This document shows, one piece after another, positions 37,173 to 37,440 of a DNA stretch of 42,299 nt. Positions within the stretch are counted from its first letter, which is position 1, and each line of letters opens with the position of its first letter. The notes below the pieces were generated by a model, which was not told the DNA's origin, made no database searches, and worked only from the letters and a program-made list of their open reading frames with translations. Position numbers and translations under genes: made by a program. The DNA comes from a virus: positions 1-42,299 of the IMG/VR virus record IMGVR_UViG_3300049491_000813. One strand, written 5' to 3'.

Positions 37173-37195
37173 AGCAACCACTTTCGCAGGTTGCT
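37173..37195 (-). terminator. Hairpin terminator of the permuted tmRNA
   Basis: On the minus strand AGCAACC, loop TGCGAAAGT and GGTTGCT make a 7-bp stem, followed by TATTTT. It falls shortly after the tag stop codon, where a two-piece tmRNA precursor should end. Confidence 0.6.
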
Positions 37196-37440
37196 CAATC
37201 TCGTCAGTACTACGCTGCTACTTTTAAAGCAGGGCGACCAAAGGCGATTAATTTGCCTTTTGTTTGTCCTGGTAATCTACTCTCATTTACTACTTGCTGT
37301 CAAAACCAATACACCCCCATTTGCAACGCTTACTCAAGGCGTTGCGGCAATACTCACAACCATAGGCTGCAATTGTGGAGGTGGGCGGAGTCGAACCGCC
37401 GTCCAAACAAGCGTCTAATAAGCATCAGACAACTACCATT
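37173..37440 (-). ncRNA. ssrA: Circularly permuted (two-piece) tmRNA
   Basis: Read on the minus strand, the acceptor piece comes first. It has the P2 3' strand (GGTAGTTGTC, TTATTA, CTTGT), then TTTGGAC, then a T-arm GGCGG-TTCGACT-CCGCC (37400-37384), acceptor strand CACCTCC (37383-37377) and discriminator A (37376). A 57-nt intervening segment follows, with its own GCAACGC/GCGTTGC hairpin. Then the tmRNA 5' end begins at 37318: GGGGGTG, then TATTGGTTTTGACAGC. GGGGGTG pairs with CACCTCC over 7 bp (one wobble), and GCAAG, TAGTAA and GATTACC pair with the upstream P2 strand. The tag frame at 37257-37210 reads GKLIAFGRPALKVAA and stops at TAG. CCA is not encoded. This order is that of permuted tmRNAs of alphaproteobacteria and some cyanobacteria. 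Confidence 0.85.

Follow-up and report, generated by a model that had tools for sequence, protein, structure and literature searches.

What kind of RNA gene lies on the minus strand at positions 37173-37440 of the virus record IMGVR_UViG_3300049491_000813, and how is it carried? We analysed the whole 42,299-nucleotide stretch of this 42.3-kb record (the window), which contains genes for the large terminase subunit (TerL), portal, capsid-protease and tail sheath. A preliminary description had read the segment as a circularly permuted, two-piece tmRNA on a phage, with its 3' piece placed before its 5' piece. That observation was confirmed, and the gene is real: the Rfam model for permuted tmRNA (RF04321) matched it with 67.6 bits against a gathering threshold of 47, over the complete model (1-213) and in permuted order, with an E value of 4.9e-11 when the window was searched against 4227 families. 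The other programs proposed for checking it gave less: ARAGORN reported no tmRNA in the window, and beta_tmRNA (RF01850) gave a local match of 46.4 bits, under its cut-off of 84. The one-piece model RF00023 gave only 21.6 bits, for a stretch with the T-arm in common, so a one-piece gene is no competitor and that reading of the locus is rejected.

Read directly on the minus strand from 5' to 3', the gene passes from the P2 3' strands and the T-arm through the 3' strand of the acceptor stem, the discriminator A and a spacer to the 5' piece. The segment boundaries, the two inner ends at 37376 and 37318 and the 57-nt spacer were all exactly as first described. The 3' (acceptor) piece spans 37376-37438, with 37438 as its putative 5' end, and is defined by the RF04321 alignment and by conservation in five loci with compensatory pairs. 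Direct reading together with the Rfam alignment places in it the 3' strands of helix P2 (P2c, 37438-37432; P2b, 37422-37416; P2a, 37412-37405), GGAC (37404-37401), the T-arm GGCGG-TTCGACT-CCGCC (37384-37400), the acceptor strand CACCTCC (37383-37377) and the discriminator A (37376). No CCA is encoded at this 3' end. The spacer (37319-37375) ends in a 7-bp hairpin, GCAACGC-cttgagtaa-GCGTTGC, directly before the 5' piece; when the spacers of the window and of its homologue L060 (below) were folded, the loop was identical and the stem different, and the spacers of the other three homologues folded weakly. The 5' (coding) piece, delimited at 37173-37318 by RF04321 and the family alignment, consists in order of the acceptor 5' strand GGGGGTG (37318-37312), TATTGGTTTTGAC, the P2 5' strands, the tag frame and the P5 hairpin AGCAACC-tgcgaaagt-GGTTGCT (37173-37195). 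A T-rich stretch follows the P5 hairpin, and the two probably also act as a terminator.

DNA pattern searches found four homologous permuted tmRNAs in viral contigs (L008, L060, L073 and L112), which scored 58.0 to 61.7 bits against RF04321, all above the cut-off. Patterns were built from the acceptor region and from the 5' strand of P2, and an independent one from the 3' strand of P2; those aimed at opposite pieces converged on the same four loci. The 3'-side pattern returned exactly these four, while the 5'-side pattern, GCAAGTAGTA...TAGATTA, returned 108 stretches with tmRNA flanks in these four only; the flanks of the rest resembled coding or unrelated sequence. A further pattern, AGTAGATANNAATAGATTATC, gave seven extra stretches, none of them tmRNA. 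In blastn searches of 50,697 phages and 72,556 plasmids, the RNA gave only matches of T-arm size. ARAGORN detects one of the five members (L008) and found nothing on L060, L073 or L112. Two other viral contigs (L006 and L007) were set aside as carriers of beta-type permuted tmRNAs, and L005 was rejected although it shares an exact 22-nt start, since its tmRNA is one-piece. That gene, on a 121-kb viral contig (L005:1728-2150), matches the window start GGGGGTGTATTGGTTTTGACAG exactly, and its predicted tag, at 27 residues, is unusually long.

The claim that the two pieces pair in the acceptor stem and P2 holds in all five loci, with compensatory changes in P2, the acceptor stem, the T-arm and P5. 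Three helices make up P2 and join both pieces: GCTTG-TT/AGCAAGT, which adjoins GGAC and GAC; CTTATTA/TGAGAGT, which reads ATTATTA/TAATAAT in L112; and TGGTAGT/ATTACCA, which differs from TGATAAT/ATTATCA in relatives by one compensatory change. In the window just five of the seven P2b pairs form. Pairs changed on both sides number three of five in the T-arm among the five loci and four of seven in P5 across the family. The third acceptor pair is G-U, and this U-G pair, a predicted alanine identity element, occurs in 5/5 loci. In the five-sequence alignment (A3), standard pairs filled 96.5% of cells and 9 of 40 pairs had changed on both sides; none of 500 shuffles scored as high, and slid partners were 38-62% paired, with the provisos that such shuffles leave relatedness in and that five sequences are few. 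MAFFT had placed the L112 acceptor one base off; a spacer-free alignment had 98.2% of cells paired, six pairs changed on both sides and all acceptor pairs intact. RNAalifold recovered the acceptor stem, T-arm, P2 and P5 with the structure withheld. Folding energy alone gave a modest gain over shuffles (z -1.84).

The mRNA-like part is the unusual portion of the molecule. P2 and the tag lie just 11-13 nt apart, so this part is minimal, and the hairpin that RF04321 places between them (the PK1 region of standard tmRNAs) is missing, appearing as gaps in the alignments, as is any PK1; we saw no pseudoknot in the tmRNA. RF04321 membership stands despite this, since the hairpin is not needed to reach the curated threshold. 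PK1 is important for tagging in standard tmRNAs, and its absence suggests that tagging may be weak. The tag frame, at 37210-37257 on the minus strand, encodes GKLIAFGRPALKVAA in 15 codons before a stop, with the resume codon placed by prediction. Each of the five RNAs keeps a 15-codon frame that starts with GGC and ends in a stop, the other tags being GKLIAFGRPAVKAAA (L060), GNVKQMFTPQLRAVA (L008), GNVTPMFATAHRAAA (L073) and GKIVPMFTPALKAVA (L112), and the tag that ARAGORN predicts for L008 is identical. The C termini are Ala-rich, and the window and L060 tags differ by three synonymous and two conservative codon changes.

These features bear on whether the RNA might be a decoy that inhibits host trans-translation. 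An mRNA-like part this short, unable to accommodate PK1, would suit such a role, as would hosts that have their own tmRNA and SmpB; a decoy would need neither a conserved 15-codon frame nor Ala-rich ends nor synonymous changes, and the conserved frame speaks against this reading, which we regard as unlikely.

We favour instead, with a probability of about 80%, a functional permuted two-piece ssrA of a tailed phage, most likely with a Bacteroidota host, that has moved as a cassette of an integron-type array. One precursor would be transcribed from the permuted gene, and tRNA-processing enzymes would excise the spacer, with RNase P cutting at 37318 and 3' processing at 37376. CCA would be added enzymatically, as it is not encoded. 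The acceptor stem and P2 would hold the two pieces together, AlaRS would charge the RNA with alanine and host SmpB would bring it to stalled ribosomes, where the nascent chain would gain a tag of about 15 residues with an Ala-Ala end and pass to host proteases. Trans-translation with host SmpB is thus the function that the anatomy suggests, and during infection it could let ribosomes go on working once mRNAs are cleaved or exhausted. No SmpB was found in the window; a Bacteroides control genome has one. The roles first suggested, freeing host ribosomes or marking host proteins for degradation, are reasonable as predictions from sequence.

That the tmRNA sits on a phage as a cassette of an array was borne out. 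Between the TerL and portal genes lie four consecutive minus-strand cassettes, each of which begins with GTT and has the complement of this beginning at its end. The tmRNA cassette is integron-type and 343 bp long (37141-37483), and its ends, GTTGGCAGAA... and ...TTCTGCCAAC, are complementary over 10 nt perfectly and over 15 nt with one mismatch. The others carry a 199-aa ORF (37619-38218) with no assigned function (cassette 37599-38223), a 77-aa ORF and a 70-aa helix-turn-helix protein (38299-38981), and a 155-aa ORF that is weakly YopX-like, below cut-off (39097-39631). Cassette-end matches of at least 10 nt numbered four, against a shuffled mean of 0.07, and 0 of 1000 shuffles reached four. 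Between and beside them on the same strand are attC-like sites D (37483-37606; fold -48.9 kcal/mol, z -3.7), C (38223-38306; fold z -4.0), B (38981-39104; fold z -1.7) and A (39631-39757; z -2.1), the last an imperfect palindrome at the end of the TerL gene. Adjoining the array, a 283-aa tyrosine recombinase (36252-37103, minus strand; PF00589 and PF13495) resembles Xer proteins and integron integrases. It scored 183 bits with NF040815 and 124.8 bits with TIGR02249, both under curated cut-offs (265 bits for TIGR02249, the integron integrase model). The locus thus has an array of cassettes with attC-like palindromes and a recombinase below the integrase cut-off, and for the latter reason we call the array integron-type and not an integron. 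Within attC D, ahead of the tmRNA, a TATATTTG motif at about 37500-37530 on the minus strand matches the Bacteroidota -7 element; a TTG lies some 21 nt before it, and together they offer a weak promoter lead; the Bacteroidota promoter pattern occurs three times in the window against 1.9 expected.

The same cassette recurs in L060 (2894-3240), with the same ends as in the window (start GTTGGCAGAAGTAACGGGC), and is followed by a complete attC-like site (stem -33 kcal/mol); a cassette common to both shows only movement or shared descent. Two viral contigs whose recombinases are 53-60% identical also have a cassette with an attC-like stem alongside, and a scan of genome contigs with the recombinase gave one 29% match, in a gammaproteobacterial MAG. 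Cassettes in related phage arrays encode an HD_4 domain protein and a PAPS-reductase-domain protein (L003:6420-6950; L004:6547-7416), which are possible host-takeover or counter-defence genes. Beside the RNAs of L008, L073 and L112, no recombinase or cassette boundary was seen by eye. Cassette circularisation is not favoured as the origin of the permutation, because these three of the five homologues have no cassette by this inspection.

A tyrosine recombinase gene immediately downstream raises the question of whether the RNA is a decayed att-site remnant, that is, displaced ssrA fragments that came by chance to lie in permuted order beside an integrase. The ssrA gene is a common integration site for islands (PMC11915505, PMC4383910), and tyrosine integrases often insert there. 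An att leftover, however, comprises one gene end, not both ends with a tag and P5; five diverged loci, three of them lacking, by eye, a recombinase or cassette boundary beside the RNA, have kept both their pairing, through compensatory changes, and the tag frame. We consider a remnant very improbable. Still harder to credit is contamination or a chimera, in which a host's own ssrA would lie within a viral contig: the record is a linear IMG/VR contig that may be incomplete, but its tmRNA cassette is flanked by TerL and portal genes, the same cassette lies in the viral contig L060 and homologues lie in three more viral contigs.

The host first proposed, a member of the Bacteroidota, is likely, not proven. 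In its favour, all 34 plasmid-record matches of a second integrase (7894-9048) are from Bacteroidota, the best phage matches of the recombinase are Polaribacter and Cellulophaga phages, and gene starts in the window show no Shine-Dalgarno enrichment (5.3% against 5.8% in shuffled sequence), an absence expected in Bacteroidota. The host signals do not all agree, since the best matches of TerL and capsid lie elsewhere, with Wolbachia, Pseudomonas and Rhodobacter phages.

The permuted tmRNAs catalogued by Rfam and the tmRNA database come mainly from Alphaproteobacteria, Betaproteobacteria and Cyanobacteria, and phage tmRNA sequences of any form number 79 (PMC11915505). The clades behind RF04321 (alpha, beta and cyano) share with the window the gene order, the acceptor stem and P2 between pieces, the T-arm, and a tag followed by P5. 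The window differs in falling below the cut-off of the beta model, the sole clade model listed, in lacking the hairpin between P2 and tag, in having TTTGAC where the alpha and beta consensus is TTCGAC, and in its unencoded CCA. Marine phages, Melnitz among them, likewise bear two-piece tmRNAs, but with reported alphaproteobacterial affinity, other hosts and no reported cassette (PMC9004378). Integrons in phage genomes also have attC sites and cassettes, some with an integrase (PMC9892861); in the window, by contrast, the recombinase is under the integron cut-off, the cassette genes read towards it and one cassette is an RNA gene. In the literature we found no tmRNA described as an integron cassette.

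The preliminary statement that no permuted tmRNA was described for Bacteroidota proved too strong, as crAss-like phages already have them in database records. The cultured member of these phages (Crassvirales) infects Bacteroides (PMC6235969); as in the window, the permuted form here belongs to phages whose hosts are likely Bacteroidota. Against RF04321, cr7_1 scored 66.4, cr124_1 63.3 and cr130_1 54.4 bits, and ARAGORN agreed on permutation; cr131_1, cr273_1 and Dulem virus 42 were called permuted by ARAGORN only and, being under the Rfam cut-off, are weaker cases; Bohxovirus reached 70.6 bits and was missed by ARAGORN. RefSeq annotates the five cr-numbered genes as ssrA without mention of form, and we found no text in the literature that names crAss-like tmRNAs as two-piece. 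The Bohxovirus tmRNA is unannotated and the Dulem virus 42 call lies under small annotated ORFs (L132, L133; PV686213.1, PP511876.1). Like the window, cr7_1 and cr124_1 have GGTTTTGACAG and a resume region like AAACGGCAA(T/C)GT, but crAss-like cores and tags differ (GNVNNIVDYTNVA and similar), no cassette was noted, and these RNAs were not among the blastn matches of the window or L008 RNAs.

Permuted tmRNAs in phages are therefore already known, and with swapped-order genes in crAss-like phage records the present one is not the first of its kind; the new elements are a divergent lineage that ARAGORN mostly misses, the short structure of the RNA and its carriage as a cassette. Permuted tmRNA, mainly catalogued in three bacterial clades, now occurs in a viral lineage that lies outside them, and integron-type cassettes, whose usual content is protein genes, can also move a ribosome-rescue RNA. 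With so short an mRNA-like part, the molecule offers a natural test of how little of a tmRNA suffices for tagging. Tentatively, and leaning somewhat towards doubt, we propose that this is a minimal, pseudoknot-free two-piece tmRNA, capable of tagging, that forms its own Bacteroidota-phage lineage and spreads between phages as an integron-type cassette; if so, it would be a mobile, phage-owned ribosome-rescue system.

Two further observations concern the contigs of the homologues. In L008 (1495-1660), the frame of the terminase large subunit seems to be interrupted within the Walker A motif (GGTSA ... GKTYAI): roughly 42 nt that contain stop codons and a hairpin, GCCCCTAA...TTAGGGGC, separate the two halves and might be an insertion or a bypass-like element. 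By eye, the final cassette ORF of L004 (7634-7942) and the gene upstream of the tmRNA in L112 (13326-13634) seem to encode the same protein, a link between the gene pool of the arrays and a non-cassette tmRNA locus.
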